Source: Peptococcaceae bacterium (GTDB lineage: Bacteria > Bacillota > DSM-12270 > Thermacetogeniales > Thermacetogeniaceae). From it: 42,016 bases of DNA. A program made the translations under genes and the position numbers. The notes beneath the pieces were generated by a model. It was not told the origin of the DNA. It worked only from the letters and a program-made list of their open reading frames with translations, and made no database searches. The stretch is from NCBI GenBank assembly GCA_023249405.1, contig JAHFCR010000022.1, forward strand, positions 1 through 42,016. The letters run 5' to 3'. This document shows positions 29,227-35,296 of the stretch, one piece after another (within the stretch, counting starts at the first letter, position 1; every line of letters starts with the position of its first letter).

Positions 29227-30300
29227 TTACAGTTGCGTACAGACTTGATTGATTTGCTGGTCTGTGATTTGCCTGTTGAAGAATAATGGATAGTAGGCTT
29301 TCATTTCTTGGGCGAGATACGCCTTCGATGCTGCGTCGTTGTTATGCAGAAGCAGGCCCTGCGTCCAGACCAGCCCCAGGATGGATTGAACGCTATCCAG
29401 ATCACCGTACTGCGGAGGAACATAGACCTTGCCCTCTTTGACCGCCGTGAGGTTCTTCCAGCGCGGGTCATTCATGATTTGTTGTTTTCCGCCCTCAGTG
29501 GCCACAATAATGATGTCAGGATTCCATGCCAAAATCTGCTCCATGGATACAGTGGCGCTTTCATTTCCGGTGTCGCTCAACTGATCGCCTAAATTGATGC
29601 CGCCCGCCATATCGATAACCGAGCCCATGATTGTATTCTTGCCCACCGTTGTCAGAACGTTTCCGAGCTTACCGGTGTAGAAAACTTTTAACTTTTTGGA
29701 ATCAGGCACTTTGGCGGTTTCCGCCTGAGCCGTTTTGAGCGTTTTATCCCAGAAATCGGCCAGCTTGTCTGCTTCCTGTCCGTTGCCGACGATCTTTCCC
29801 ACCATACGGAAGGTATCTTCATAACCGCTCAAGGGTTCCTTCCCAACGGCGACCACCGGAATTTTGGCCTGTTGTTGCAGTTTATCCACATTGATATCGC
29901 TATCGAGGGTGATGATCACATCGGGTTTTAACGAGATCACCTGTTCTGTATTCATTTTCGCAAAGAAGGTTCCTGTCACCGGCAATTTGCTTAATTTCGC
30001 GATATCGGCATCGCTGAGGTATTTGGTGCTGGTCGACTGGAGATACATCCACTGAAAAACCCAATCCACGCTGATCAGTTTATCCGGAGCCAGCCGCCAA
30101 ATAGCATAGGTGGATACGGGATGAAGACCAAGCACTCGGTTAACCTGGGCAGGCATCGTCACAGTCCTCTGGTCAAAATCCGTGATCGAGTTGCTGGAAC
30201 TGTTGGCCTTTCCAATTTTTTGACAGCCGGATAGCATCACAAGCGCCATCACAACTGCCAGACAAACAACAGAAACTTTTAATGCACGTAACTTTTGCAA
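29227..30300 (-). CDS. Fe/cobalamin-type ABC importer binding lipoprotein
   Basis: 357-residue cluster A-II (FepB/BtuF, Peripla_BP_2) binding protein. Start TTG 30300 follows GAGGAGGAGAAG. Lipoprotein signal LVMLSGC, Cys26. The mature part has RVLGLHPVSTYAIWRLAP, SLKPDVIITLDSD and EQILAWNPDIIIVAT, the two half-domains joined by a long helix. Last gene of the operon with FecCD-type permease, FecE-type ATPase, radical SAM enzyme and DFVTNSSS protein. Iron chelates, cobalamin, heme or molybdate are all possible ligands. Confidence 0.92.
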   Translation of the reverse strand: MQKLRALKVSVVCLAVVMALVMLSGCQKIGKANSSSNSITDFDQRTVTMPAQVNRVLGLHPVSTYAIWRLAPDKLISVDWVFQWMYLQSTSTKYLSDADIAKLSKLPVTGTFFAKMNTEQVISLKPDVIITLDSDINVDKLQQQAKIPVVAVGKEPLSGYEDTFRMVGKIVGNGQEADKLADFWDKTLKTAQAETAKVPDSKKLKVFYTGKLGNVLTTVGKNTIMGSVIDMAGGINLGDQLSDTGNESATVSMEQILAWNPDIIIVATEGGKQQIMNDPRWKNLTAVKEGKVYVPPQYGDLDSVQSILGLVWTQGLLLHNNDAASKAYLAQEMKAYYPLFFNRQITDQQINQVCTQL

Positions 30301-30431: not shown

Positions 30432-31214
30432 TCAGGTAGTGCGGGGCACGCATACCTTGAAGGGACGCTCGCCATCGACATCGGCATTGACAACCCTGAT
30501 GCCGACGCCGTAAAGATCCCGCAGGCTAGCTTCGGTCACTGTCTCATCCGGCAATCCCTGACTGTACACGCACCCGTCTTTCAGCATCAGTACCCTGGTG
30601 GAATACAGGAAGGCATGATCCGGAAAGTGTGAGGCCATTACTATGGCCAGGTCCATCTTTGCCAGTTGTCTCACTTTGCTCAACACCAGTAGCTGGTTGC
30701 CAAAATCCAGACTGGCGGTGGGTTCGTCCATCACCAGGAACCGGGGCTGCTGGGCCAGAGCCCTGGCAATCAGCACCAGTTGTTTTTCACCGCCGCTGAT
30801 TTCGGTGTAGACCCTGTCAGCCAGATATTCGATATGCAGCATGGACATAGCATTCCTGGCTATGGCCAGATCCTGGGATGATGGCGAGGCGAGAGGCCCC
30901 AGATAAGCAGTCCGGCCCATAACCACGACATCCAGTACTTGAAACGGTACGGTGGAGTGCTGGGCCTGCGGGATGTAGCCTATCAGCCTGGCAATCTGCG
31001 CCCGCGGCCAGTTGCGAATGTCGGCGCCGTCGATCAGCACCCGGCCCGTCTGCAGCCTCAACAACCCGAGTATGGCCTTGAACAGAGTGGTCTTCCCCGC
31101 GCCGTTGGGAGCCAACAGGCAGAGCACCTCTCCGGACTGCAGCGTGAGTGAGATGTCCCTGAGCACGGTTCTACCGCCGTAGCCGCAGGATACTCCCTTT
31201 AGCTCCAATTTCAT
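30432..31214 (-). CDS. Fe/cobalamin-type ABC importer ATPase (FecE/BtuD type)
   Basis: 260-residue ATPase: Walker A APNGAGKTT, Q-loop YIPQAQ, signature ISGGEKQLVLIARALAQ, Walker B FLVMDEPTASLD, and switch His in MASHFPDHA. ATG 31214 is preferred because GGAGGGG sits six bases upstream; ATG 31220 is too close to it. It overlaps the permease stop (31211) by four bases, so translation is coupled. 131 bases separate it from the binding-protein gene. Confidence 0.93.
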   Translation of the reverse strand: MKLELKGVSCGYGGRTVLRDISLTLQSGEVLCLLAPNGAGKTTLFKAILGLLRLQTGRVLIDGADIRNWPRAQIARLIGYIPQAQHSTVPFQVLDVVVMGRTAYLGPLASPSSQDLAIARNAMSMLHIEYLADRVYTEISGGEKQLVLIARALAQQPRFLVMDEPTASLDFGNQLLVLSKVRQLAKMDLAIVMASHFPDHAFLYSTRVLMLKDGCVYSQGLPDETVTEASLRDLYGVGIRVVNADVDGERPFKVCVPRTT

Positions 31215-32248
31215 TCCCATCCCCTCCCGCCTTTAAGCAACAGGTACAGGAACAGGGGCGCGCCGACAACGGCGGTGACAATACCAAGCGGCACCTCCAG
31301 GTTGGACATGGTCCTGCACAAATCGTCCACCAACAGCAAATAGGTAGCACCGAGCATAATAGAGGCCGGCAGCAACATCTTGTAATTGGGGCCTACGATC
31401 ATCCGGGCCAGGTGGGGAATGATCAGGCCTACCCAGCCAACCAGGCCACTGATGGAAACGGCTGCCGAGGTCATCAGGGTGGAACAGAAAATGACGATAT
31501 TCTGCAGCTTACGGGTGTTCAGCCCTAGCGCCGCGGCTTCCTCTTCGCCCAGAGTCAGTACATTGATACGCCACCGCAGCAGGTAGATAGGGACAGTGCC
31601 GAGAAAAATCGGTATAAAGGCGGACATGGCTGAATTGCTGTCGACTGAAGCCAGGCTGCCCATCAGCCAGAACTCGATCGCCGGCAGGACGTTGTTCGGG
31701 TCGGCCACATACTTGAGCAGGGAGGTCGCTGCGCTAAACAGCGCCCCCACAATGAAGCCCGTCAGCACCAGGGTCAGTGACTTGTCCCGGCGGATTCTGC
31801 CGCTGATGGACATCACCAGCAGCACCGCCGCCAATCCGAAACAAAAAGACACGGCTTGAATCCCGACCGTGTTCAAGGAGAAGTAGATAGCCAGCGCCGC
31901 TCCAAAACCGGCTCCGGATGAGACCCCCAGGATATCGCCCGAGATCAGCGGGTTTTTGAACATCCCCTGGTAGCTGGCCCCCGCAGCCGACAGCGCCGCC
32001 CCGACCAACATAGCCGCCAGGATGCGGGGCAGCCGCACCTGATAAATTACCGTGTCGATCGTGGGAGACCAGGTATGTTTGATCGGCAATACTTGGCTGG
32101 CCAGCGACAGCAACAGTTGGCGGATACCGACCGGGTACCTCCCCAGCGCGAACGAGACCACGAATACCAACAGCAGACAGGCAATCAAGGACAATTCGCA
32201 CCAACGAGCTCCGGTTCTGTTCTGGAATGAGCTTCCACTATGGGACAT
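31211..32248 (-). CDS. Fe/cobalamin-type ABC permease (FecCD family)
   Basis: 345-residue permease with about ten membrane spans. Family motifs: RLPRILAAMLVGAALSAAGA, MFKNPLISGDILGVSSGAGFG, GLVGWVGLIIPHLARMIVGP and LEVPLGIVTAVVGAP near the end. ATG 32248 has GGAG at good spacing; the upstream ATG 32269 lacks this. It lies 30 bases after the radical SAM gene, so both belong to one transcript. Confidence 0.94.
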   Translation of the reverse strand: MSHSGSSFQNRTGARWCELSLIACLLLVFVVSFALGRYPVGIRQLLLSLASQVLPIKHTWSPTIDTVIYQVRLPRILAAMLVGAALSAAGASYQGMFKNPLISGDILGVSSGAGFGAALAIYFSLNTVGIQAVSFCFGLAAVLLVMSISGRIRRDKSLTLVLTGFIVGALFSAATSLLKYVADPNNVLPAIEFWLMGSLASVDSNSAMSAFIPIFLGTVPIYLLRWRINVLTLGEEEAAALGLNTRKLQNIVIFCSTLMTSAAVSISGLVGWVGLIIPHLARMIVGPNYKMLLPASIMLGATYLLLVDDLCRTMSNLEVPLGIVTAVVGAPLFLYLLLKGGRGWE

Positions 32249-32278
32249 TTGTGTTTCTCCTCGAATCATCAGGGCCGA

Positions 32279-33370
32279 TTATGCTGATTGACCATGATGG
32301 AAAGGGAGCGACGATGGTTGAGTGATTAAGTCGCACAGGAACAGTTCCGGAAACAGCAGGCATCTTCCTCTGCAGTCAGAGGTTTTGCTGCAGCCGGCGC
32401 ACCCTGACTGGCCAGTAGTTCCGACCTGTTTTCTATAGTCCGACAGCTTATCGTGCCATATTTCCTCGAAACTGAACTGCCTCAGGTTGAAACTGAATTT
32501 ATCATTATTGCAGAAGGAGCATGGCATCACGTCCAGACTCTCGTTGATATAAATCGAAAAAAAGCCGCACTCGCAACTGTCTATGAGGTCGTGATCCACG
32601 TTGGTGGCTTTCAGCAAGCTCGGGACGAAACAGGCGTCAAAGCCGATCTTCAGCACCGTGGCCGGGTGTTCGACGCTAGCCAGGAATGTTTGCAGCAGAC
32701 TGGATGATCTGATGTTGTCACTCCCGTCAGCCCTGCCTGCTGGTTTGTAGGTCAGGAAGATCACAGAGTTGAATTGCCCGATGTACGCATCATACTCACC
32801 TCTCAAGACTGCAGTGGCGTGCGCAAGGGTTGTTTCCGACATTACGTAATGGATATTGGTTCTAATCCCCTCGTCCTTCAGGTATGAACCCAGGCGGGAG
32901 AGTTCCTGCAAAGGCATGCTGTCCCGGTAGGGGTCCCAAGAAATTGCTATGGCTCCGCAGTAGGCCCTGGTGGCCTCAATGTTTTTATGGTTGAAAAATT
33001 TGCCGCAGGTAGTGTAGTTGGGGACGATCCCGCGCTCCTCTCGCGTCAGTTGCAACAAGTCAGTAAACTCGGGGTGTAGGAGCGGTTCACCTCCACCGAG
33101 GGCGACCTGAAATATGCTGCCATACGCTGTGCTTGTCAACTGGTCGAGGGCGAACCGGTAATCTTGCAACGACATGCATTGGCCGTCCGGGTTGCTCGAC
33201 CGGTAACAGTACCGGCATCCGTTGGTGCAATAATTGGATATGGAGATGTCTGCCAATTCCGGCCAGGGAGCCAGATCGGGGTTGTCAGCAAAGGTATCCC
33301 CCCATCTGAAGGTGGTCCCTGTGGCAGGGTTGCCTACGAAGTTGTACCCAGGAATATGCCGTCTCAGCAT
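32279..33370 (-). CDS. Radical SAM/SPASM enzyme, putative peptide or protein modifier
   Basis: 363-residue radical SAM protein. The SAM cluster is C48-x3-C52-x2-C55 (CTNGCRYCY), with GGGEP at 92-96. A SPASM-type C-terminal region holds Cys at 266, 268, 284, 287, 324, 327, 333, 337 and 346, enough for one or two auxiliary [4Fe-4S] clusters. SPASM enzymes commonly modify ribosomal peptides (anSME, PqqE, thioether synthases). ATG 33370 overlaps the stop of the preceding DFVTNSSS gene by seven bases, so the two are made together, and that protein is the natural candidate substrate or partner. Followed by an Fe/B12-type importer. Confidence 0.88.
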   Translation of the reverse strand: MLRRHIPGYNFVGNPATGTTFRWGDTFADNPDLAPWPELADISISNYCTNGCRYCYRSSNPDGQCMSLQDYRFALDQLTSTAYGSIFQVALGGGEPLLHPEFTDLLQLTREERGIVPNYTTCGKFFNHKNIEATRAYCGAIAISWDPYRDSMPLQELSRLGSYLKDEGIRTNIHYVMSETTLAHATAVLRGEYDAYIGQFNSVIFLTYKPAGRADGSDNIRSSSLLQTFLASVEHPATVLKIGFDACFVPSLLKATNVDHDLIDSCECGFFSIYINESLDVMPCSFCNNDKFSFNLRQFSFEEIWHDKLSDYRKQVGTTGQSGCAGCSKTSDCRGRCLLFPELFLCDLITQPSSLPFHHGQSA

Positions 33371-33792
33371 TTAACAGTACGGGGATCTACTTCACAGTTG
33401 CAAGGCGCAATGCCGACAACTGTTGCGCCTAGACAGTTGAGATCGCTGCTCCTGCCCTTGACGACGATCCAGTTGAGCAGGTTCCACATCTGATCATCCG
33501 TTAGCTGGCTGAGGTCGGTGGTGGTAATCTGTTCCGGGTTGAGATCGGCATCCAGAAGCAGTGATTTGCCGAGGTTGAATGTTTTGATGGTATAATGGCA
33601 TTCGATGCCATCAATCTCTGTTTTATGGCCATCCTGTTTCAGTTTATCCCTGACAAAAGAGAGCAGTTGCGCCGATCCGGTCTCTGCATGCTTTTTATAC
33701 AATTCGATATAACTGTTGGCGATGTCATCCTTTAGCATCAGGATAAAACTCGCCGAGCTGCTGTTTGTTACAAAATCTGCTCTGATTTTCAA
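33364..33792 (-). CDS. DFVTNSSS-motif protein, candidate radical SAM substrate
   Basis: 142 residues from TTG 33792, preceded by GGGGGA. The start is set by the conserved opening MKIRADFVTNSSSASFIL; similar 'DFVTNSSSSSF' openings are known to me on many unrelated bacterial hypothetical proteins, with no assigned function. An ATG at 33807 adds five residues but lies within the ribosome site. The middle (20-115) is helical and charged. The tail is Cys-rich: C120, then C131, C133 and C142 as the last residue (PCNCEVDPRTVKC). Uniform N-terminal motif plus Cys-rich end plus overlapping radical SAM/SPASM gene recalls leader-core organisation of modified peptides. A folded scaffold or accessory protein is the alternative. 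Confidence 0.65.
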   Translation of the reverse strand: MKIRADFVTNSSSASFILMLKDDIANSYIELYKKHAETGSAQLLSFVRDKLKQDGHKTEIDGIECHYTIKTFNLGKSLLLDADLNPEQITTTDLSQLTDDQMWNLLNWIVVKGRSSDLNCLGATVVGIAPCNCEVDPRTVKC

Positions 33793-34051
33793 TCCAAATC
33801 CCCCCATATTTGTGATACCGTAGCGTCATTTTAAAAAGTTTTTGATATAGCCGCCATTTTACAAAAGCAGCACCTGCCTAACATTGATTTAAAACATGCG
33901 ACCGACCATGATTACCTTGCTGTTTCCCAGTCATAGCCTCCTGACAATGAAAATTGCTGTTCAAATGGCTATTTGGCAGAAAATGGGGCGCACAATGAGC
34001 TAGCTTAATTCATTCATAATGATATAAGAACTAACATAACAAAACATGATT
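33793..34051 (-). other. Long 5' leader of the radical SAM-importer operon
   Basis: About 250 transcribed bases precede the first gene if the promoter at 34052-34080 is used. A tiny frame behind AGGAGG (MTGKQQGNHGRSHVL, minus strand, about 33950) may be a leader peptide. No cobalamin, Moco or other known riboswitch signature was recognised by eye. Confidence 0.35.
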
Positions 34052-34531: not shown

Positions 34532-34792
34532 AGGTAATACCAAAAAACAACGAGGTTATAATAGCGTGAAACATCCATGCCGGCGGCTGGCGCACAGAAC
34601 ATTGAAAATGGAGTAGAGAGCTGGCTGCTCGTGTAATACCGTGCGATATTGTTGTAAGGCCGATGCCCCAGGAAATTCTGTTGAAGCTCGGTCAAACTGC
34701 CGCTGGTGGCAAGGAGATCCTCCGGGGAATCCAAATTTTGGGCTTAAAAAACATGTTATAATCTAATCAAAGCACGATAAGGGGATGATGTG

Positions 34793-35296
34793 ATGGTTGA
34801 CGATCTGGCCAGATTTATTGACAAAGCAAAAGAGTTCGGAGCACTCGACGCCAAATTGATTAAAGCAGACACTATCAAGACAGGCGCCTGGGTGAGAATG
34901 AAATGTCATTTTGGCTGTGGCCACTATAATACAAGCTTCAGTTGCCCTCCCCACACTCCAGCACCCAGAGAGACGCAGGAGGTGATCGACTGCTACGGCA
35001 CCGCCCTGCTTGTGCACTGCCAGCAAATTGGAGACCCCACCGAAGTGGTCATCAAGCTGGAGCGGGAGATCTTCCTGGCGGGATACTACAAGGCATTGGC
35101 GTATGGGGCGGGACCCTGCCGGATATGTGAGGAATGCAACGTCCAGCAGTGCAATCATCCGCGGCAAAGCAGGCCCTCCATGGAATCCTGCGGCATTGAC
35201 GTATACGCTACCGTAAGGGCAAACGGTTTTCCAATCGCAGTGGTGAAGGACAGGGCGTCCGAACAGAACTATTACGGGCTGGTTCTGATCGAATAG
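34793..35296 (+). CDS. DUF2284 predicted metal-binding protein
   Basis: 167-residue cytoplasmic protein of the DUF2284 family. Cys-rich motifs: CHFGCGHYNTSFSCPP near residue 40, and ICEECNVQQCNHP followed by SMESCGIDVYATV in the second half; these probably hold an Fe-S cluster or other metal. Start ATG 34793 with AAGGGG eight bases upstream; GTG 34790 is in the same frame but closer. The family is common in methanogens and acetogens, with no firm biochemical role. It stands alone here. Confidence 0.85.
   Translation: MVDDLARFIDKAKEFGALDAKLIKADTIKTGAWVRMKCHFGCGHYNTSFSCPPHTPAPRETQEVIDCYGTALLVHCQQIGDPTEVVIKLEREIFLAGYYKALAYGAGPCRICEECNVQQCNHPRQSRPSMESCGIDVYATVRANGFPIAVVKDRASEQNYYGLVLIE

Follow-up and report, generated by a model that had tools for sequence, protein, structure and literature searches.

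Radical SAM enzymes are known for the making of peptides and cofactors; cases in which they modify a protein family, as with the sulfatases, are rare. The closest described relatives of the system reported here are the radical SAM/SPASM maturases of RiPPs (sactipeptide, ranthipeptide, WgkB, mycofactocin and GeoRSP), which share its architecture and whose gene likewise adjoins that of the likely substrate; an RRE (PqqD-like) domain is common, though not universal, in RiPP systems. Among enzymes that work on folded proteins, anSME is a SPASM radical SAM enzyme that modifies one protein family at a short motif. For VMAP ternary conflict systems, Kaur et al. 2020 (PMC7159879) describe a radical SAM enzyme whose target is a C-terminal FxSxx peptide.

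Here we analyse a 42,016-nucleotide stretch of Peptococcaceae bacterium DNA (assembly GCA_023249405.1, contig JAHFCR010000022.1), which as a whole we call the window, where the gene of a small protein with a conserved N-terminal motif overlaps that of a radical SAM/SPASM enzyme. We consider it likely that the two belong to a two-part protein-marking system, in which a dedicated radical SAM/SPASM enzyme recognizes an N-terminal tag and most probably modifies it. A search of the open-access literature found no paper on the tag or on the tag-enzyme pair.

The tagged protein of the window

The tagged gene and its parts are as follows.

33364..33792, minus strand: tagged protein gene, 142 aa, TTG start, body family 'group 5' (ORF and translation)
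33800..33805, minus strand: Shine-Dalgarno-like GGGGGG run ahead of the TTG start (sequence)
33745..33792, minus strand: N-terminal tag, residues 1-16, (M/L)KIRADFVTNSSSASF (tag conservation and AlphaFold model)
33415..33756, minus strand: folded alpha/beta body, residues 13-126, conserved in group 5 (..DDELWxYIxGEYxxxGRL..GFGxTQV; alignment A2 and model)
33367..33414, minus strand: C-terminal Cys-bearing tail (Cys131, 133, 142), predicted to be disordered (model and group-5 alignment)

Translation from the TTG at 33792 gives LKIRADFVTNSSSASF... (142 residues, the first being Met in vivo). The GGGGGG run ends 7 nt before this TTG, and an alternative in-frame ATG is present five codons upstream; in relatives, the start codon immediately precedes the K of the tag. 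The gene shares its last 7 bases, stop included, with the radical SAM gene (33370 to 32279), which begins there with ATG, just as the first-pass annotation of this DNA had it. Searched against NCBIfam, the protein matches no family, and against Pfam nothing rises over the cutoff; used as a query, it has no match in the plasmid or phage collections. Homologues 47-48% identical to it occur in two genomes, with a third at Syntrophomonas wolfei locus L187, and group 5 as a whole is a family of 24 members. Two loci (L205 and L210) encode group-5 proteins with a tandem copy of the body in which the second tag is absent. The window's own genome also has the decayed remnant of a second tag and enzyme pair on contig C90 around 23.2 kb (L002 1489-1785), in which fragments of the radical SAM gene and of the C-terminal part of the tagged protein are fused.

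The same annotation had proposed that the C-terminal cysteines form a modified core. Its positions for Cys120, 131, 133 and 142 are right on the minus strand, with Cys65 to be added to them. Four C-terminal cysteines, three of them within the disordered tail, do invite the reading of a thioether-modified core, and homologues at L004, L179, L188 and L211 also have Cys-bearing tails. However, the tail is missing from many group-5 homologues in the alignment, and homologues from Bacteroidota and Bacillota that have the same body and an adjacent partner enzyme end in ...GFGVTQVEQY or similar, with no Cys tail, which is just the observation that the annotation had named as refuting its proposal. 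More widely, the last 25 residues are free of Cys in 305 of 512 tagged proteins, 88 of the 512 lack Cys everywhere outside the tag, and across the tagged proteins no Cys is conserved. We therefore rejected the Cys core, which on the homologues that keep the enzyme and lack the tail is very improbable.

The partner radical SAM/SPASM enzyme

The gene that overlaps the tagged one encodes the tag's partner.

32279..33370, minus strand: radical SAM/SPASM enzyme, 363 aa, of the tag's partner family (Pfam Radical_SAM 1.8e-12; family HMM and alignment A1)
33206..33229, minus strand: CX3CX2C radical SAM cluster motif, Cys48, 52 and 55 (sequence and alignment)
32333..32632, minus strand: SPASM region with candidate auxiliary-cluster cysteines (Pfam and alignment)

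Judged by its Pfam domain and cluster cysteines, the window enzyme is clearly assigned as a radical SAM protein. Its C-terminal cysteines are conserved, the candidates for SPASM cluster binding being Cys247, 266, 268, 284, 287, 324, 327, 333, 337 and 346. Radical_SAM, SPASM and Fer4_12 are its only Pfam matches, with an RRE (PqqD-like) recognition domain absent from that search, and it scores far under every NCBIfam family cutoff (47.2 bits for GeoRSP, TIGR04303, against a cutoff of 400 bits). By sequence, the nearest solved structures are the radical SAM entry 5v1q (5.6e-14) and then SkfB (6efn), and there is weak similarity to anSME (4k36/4k37, 1.9e-4). Used alone as a viral query the window enzyme gives no matches, and only two routes reached the rest of the system, the motif pattern and alignment A1 of 13 sequences; the phage members of the family correspond to phrog_7293 in PHROGs. 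Across the family the cluster spacing is CX3CX2C in 74 members, CX7CX6C in 67 and of other kinds in 9, so that about half is non-canonical. The spacings CX7CX6C, CxCx3Cx3C and CX7CX2C are found within this one enzyme family, for example at L016, L118 and L256. A further oddity is a phage radical SAM gene (L089, 3783-6131) with an in-frame intein-like insert directly ahead of the conserved CALGG segment.

One N-terminal tag on many unrelated proteins

The tag has a 16-residue consensus, MK-I-[RK]-x-DFVTNSSSx[SC][FY], strictly at the protein N-terminus, and in nearly all tagged proteins it begins at the start codon. Since its DNA pattern occurs once in the window's own 3.57-Mb genome, the motif seen here is not a chance occurrence. 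A degenerate DNA pattern matched 9 of 399 genomes of the phylum, eight of the matches being real and one a chance match with an in-frame stop, and the reversed pattern, used as a control, matched 1 of the 399. All eight real matches adjoin a related radical SAM/SPASM gene, and their carrier proteins are of three unrelated kinds. A tighter pattern found at least 120 stretches in IMG/VR and at least 118 in GTDB contigs. The suggestion that the motif recurs on otherwise unrelated proteins is borne out: taken together, the loci collected yield at least 523 different tagged proteins, which profile merging places in 68 body families. Their carriers are large phages, phages of the T4-like kind (RB43, RB16, KP15), and both bacteria and archaea. 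These bodies include BspA-type LRR repeats, BRCT domains, coiled-coil proteins (~480 aa), a Cys-rich family resembling zinc ribbons and many without known domains, with no sulfatase domain in the bodies scanned; the median length is 136 aa and the maximum 717 aa.

The DNA patterns preset several tag positions, and we therefore re-measured conservation in loci retrieved via the enzyme only, scoring each start codon with a weight matrix so that the motif played no part in retrieval; no shuffled sequence rose above the matrix threshold. In these enzyme-anchored loci the core is close to invariant (T9 207/209, N10 209/209, S11 209/209, S12 208/209, S13 207/209) and position 4 is K or R in 209/209, with change tolerated at positions 6, 7, 8, 14 and 15, the residue at position 7 being F, Y or H.

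A single phage stretch can hold up to ten tagged genes in tandem, as would be expected if the shared start were a DNA-level feature, that is a recombination site or a recently copied cassette, and not a protein signal. However, where ten or seven tagged genes lie within single phages, the residues of the tag are fixed and its invariant positions are encoded by codons that differ from copy to copy, with TCN/AGY exchange at serines, which shows selection at the protein level. A DNA-level feature would also leave the link to the enzyme without explanation. On the scrambled codons we rejected the copying of a DNA cassette, and regard a DNA-level origin as exceedingly improbable.

Genomic settings of the tag

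On bacterial and archaeal chromosomes the tag recurs in three settings, namely operons with an Avs2-like NTPase, the importer setting of the window's own family, and Clostridia arrays or long bodies. In the window, the tagged gene is followed on the same strand by the radical SAM/SPASM gene and then, in this order, by the genes of an ABC importer.

31211..32269, minus strand: FecCD/BtuC-type ABC importer permease, same operon direction (Pfam FecCD 8.1e-84)
30432..31220, minus strand: ABC importer ATPase, FecE/BtuD type (NCBIfam/Pfam search)
29227..30300, minus strand: substrate-binding lipoprotein, Peripla_BP_2, iron-siderophore/B12 type (Pfam 2e-34)

FecCD genes are found only beside group-5 tags (6 of 21 loci vs 0 of 253, plus L187 from Syntrophomonas), and an ABC ATPase adjoins group-5 tags in 7 of 21 loci. 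Rfam finds no RNA family in the window, and hence there is no riboswitch hint to the importer's substrate. Next to the operon, on the plus strand (34790-35296), lies the gene of a DUF2284 metal-binding protein, related to domains of selenoproteins such as MbdU. Among the recurrent neighbours of the tag, which are partly annotated, no protease family is prominent, and the ABC genes of the window are of importer type.

At ~20 loci, an Avs2-like STAND NTPase, an untagged paralogue, a tagged protein and the enzyme form a tight operon, in hosts that include Sporomusa, Methanosarcina, Methanoculleus, Sulfurimonas and Arenibacter. The four NTPases tested matched the PADLOC Avs2 models (1.6e-18 to 5.5e-82), and the NTPase N-termini vary, one example being trypsin-like. 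Upstream of the tagged gene in these operons lies one whose product is a distant paralogue of the tagged body (hhalign probability 96.7%) but has no tag, and this suggests that the tag is an add-on. The four-gene set itself (L200 1374-6046 and ~20 other loci) is a candidate defence operon of bacteria and methanogens.

Among T4-like enterobacterial phages (coliphages RB43, RB16 and Lw1 included), the enzyme was found in 180 records, a count that includes eight weak Microcystis phage matches, and the tagged phrog_7397 protein in 175. The Microcystis phage proteins, Fe-S oxidoreductases, were set aside at 24% identity as probably a different radical SAM family. KP15_102 matches the phrog_7397 HMM over its full length (5.9e-116), and other phage bodies match it weakly, some in the tag region only. 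In phage KP15 a large VWA-domain protein is encoded between the two tagged genes of T4-like phages (L258 6844-9057).

The tag and the enzyme family are genetically tied

Radical SAM genes had been expected to be enriched beside the motif, and they strongly are. In genome loci the enzyme lay inside the fetched stretch in 66 of 80 and was cut at the locus edge in one more; 10 of the remaining 13 have it elsewhere in the genome, bringing the total to 77 of 80, and the three tag-bearing genomes in which it was not detected may be incomplete assemblies. For phage loci the enzyme was within the stretch in 46 of 80, and 17 of 32 remaining phage records, a set in which fragments are frequent, carry it at another place on the contig. 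Viewed from the enzyme side, 80 phage loci gave a strict tag within 6 kb in 57 and a variant tag in 12, and for 4 of the other 11 the tag lies farther away on the contig. Of the 399 genomes in the phylum sample, 9 have the enzyme (E<=1e-30), and it is these 9 that have the tag if one variant, MKIKADYITNSSSTSF, is counted (hypergeometric 1.6e-18). Tag and enzyme lie on one strand in 368 of 369 pairs. Tag and enzyme family are, on these counts, genetically tied.

The two also covary. Enzymes with an extended Cys loop pair with R4 tags (190/195) and S14 tags (179/195), and canonical CX3CX2C enzymes with K4 tags (96/134) and non-S14 tags (103/134), counts that are uncorrected for the shared ancestry of phage lineages, a confounder. 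The R/K4 split persists inside body groups 0 and 1, and therefore does not stem from the body.

N-terminal sorting signals exist in phages, many phage copies of the tag lie beside tail sheath and tube genes, and the settings of the tag are varied (importer, Avs2-like NTPase), all of which could fit a sorting, packaging or partner-binding signal, with the enzyme acting on another molecule or using the tagged protein as a partner. We nevertheless find this improbable, for the tag and the enzyme are linked even where no other gene is common, tag residues covary with the enzyme subtype, and in the T4-like phages the link is kept although ~20 kb separate the two genes, whose counts for each host genus are nearly the same.

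The tag as a predicted free tail

We modelled two unrelated bodies with AlphaFold, on alignments of 20 and 44 sequences (two rows from annotated phage records were left out of the phage alignment), and in these models low pLDDT is no more than a suggestion of flexibility. The window protein has a pLDDT of 75.6, with ~40 at residues 1-10, a first strand at residues 13-21 and values <50 at 129-136 and 139-142; the phage body reaches 92.1. Foldseek finds no fold match in the PDB for either body. Because residues 1-12 are left unstructured in both models and strand 1 begins at residue 13, the tag appears to be a fixed-length, free tail attached to a folded domain.

The first-pass annotation had seen in the motif the recognition leader of a precursor peptide, and half of this view stands, as the shared N-terminal motif is indeed tied to the enzyme. 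The other half does not, since a leader with a core peptide does not fit bodies that are folded domains of up to ~700 aa and not short hypervariable cores. A related possibility is that the tag is a docking leader from which the enzyme reaches a different site in each body. RiPP leaders are N-terminal and conserved, their maturases are adjacent, and the residues common to all substrates lie in the tag here, as docking predicts. However, the folded bodies of 68 families offer no common candidate residue or core, the invariance falls on small polar TNSSS residues and not on a helical docking motif, and Pfam gives the window enzyme radical SAM and SPASM-type domains only, with no domain for recognition. 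Docking of this kind is unlikely in our judgement.

Discussion

We propose that the system has two parts. The first would be the 16-residue tag (MKIRxDFVTNSSSxSF), which in many unrelated folded proteins runs straight into the first strand, and the second a single dedicated radical SAM/SPASM family that recognizes it. The enzyme would most likely bind the free 12-residue tail and introduce an oxidative modification within the T9-N10-S11-S12-S13 core, or at the adjacent aromatic F7. Possible chemistries include a side-chain cross-link from F7 to T9/N10 or an oxidation of Ser, each of which would change the mass by ~-2 Da; a short cross-link or a serine oxidation would both suit a SPASM enzyme. 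That the enzyme acts on the tag, and at which site and by which chemistry, we infer from the invariance of the core, the accessibility of the tail and the covariation of tag and enzyme. The mark would remain on the folded protein, with no released peptide being matured, and the role of the marked proteins would differ with context, from phage accessory proteins to Avs2-like immune operons and the iron/B12-type importer operon of the window. In its broadest form, which we favour with some reserve, the proposal is a categorically new system of protein marking, in which a portable tag of 12-16 residues would direct an enzyme found across phages, bacteria and archaea to place a single defined modification on the free tail of whichever folded protein bears it, and which phages would use on arrays of accessory proteins and hosts in Avs2-like immune and metal/cofactor importer operons.

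If this is true, one enzyme family that serves 68 unrelated families of folded proteins by way of a single fixed N-terminal tag, in phages and in two domains of life, would represent a general route of protein marking that annotation has missed. It would supply a likely substrate for an orphan phage enzyme (180 phage records, the weak Microcystis matches included), turn a simple string into a rule for finding hundreds of further substrates, and connect radical chemistry with Avs2-like immunity in a way open to experiment. Directed protein modification might also make use of the tag as a portable label.

How does this compare with systems already described? Like RiPP precursors and their maturases, tag and enzyme genes are adjacent, with the 7-base overlap in the window and same-strand adjacency across loci. 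However, in place of a short precursor with a variable core we find proteins of median 136 aa with folded LRR, BRCT and other bodies, and the thioether-forming core Cys of sactipeptides and ranthipeptides is lacking. The substrates are folded, come from 68 families, bear a fixed N-terminal tag and have no Cys requirement, and the enzyme scores far under the NCBIfam cutoffs, with about half of its family having non-canonical cluster spacing. Whereas anSME serves one substrate family through a C/S-x-P/A-x-R motif, the motif here is an N-terminal TNSSS on unrelated bodies. The FxSxx-COOH systems likewise place a radical SAM/SPASM gene beside that of a short-motif protein in an immune-like operon, but there the motif is C-terminal and the partners are VMAP and vWA-MoxR, whereas the present motif is N-terminal, and on chromosomes its partner is either an Avs2-like STAND NTPase or an importer. 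Compared with AVAST type 2 (Avs2) the NTPase is alike, and most operons here also encode the radical SAM enzyme and two paralogues, one tagged and one untagged. In PHROGs, phrog_7293 covers the phage enzyme and phrog_7397 one tagged protein, both filed under unknown function, with the tag and the link undescribed there. The enzyme class is already known; to judge from the open-access literature, the substrate logic is new.
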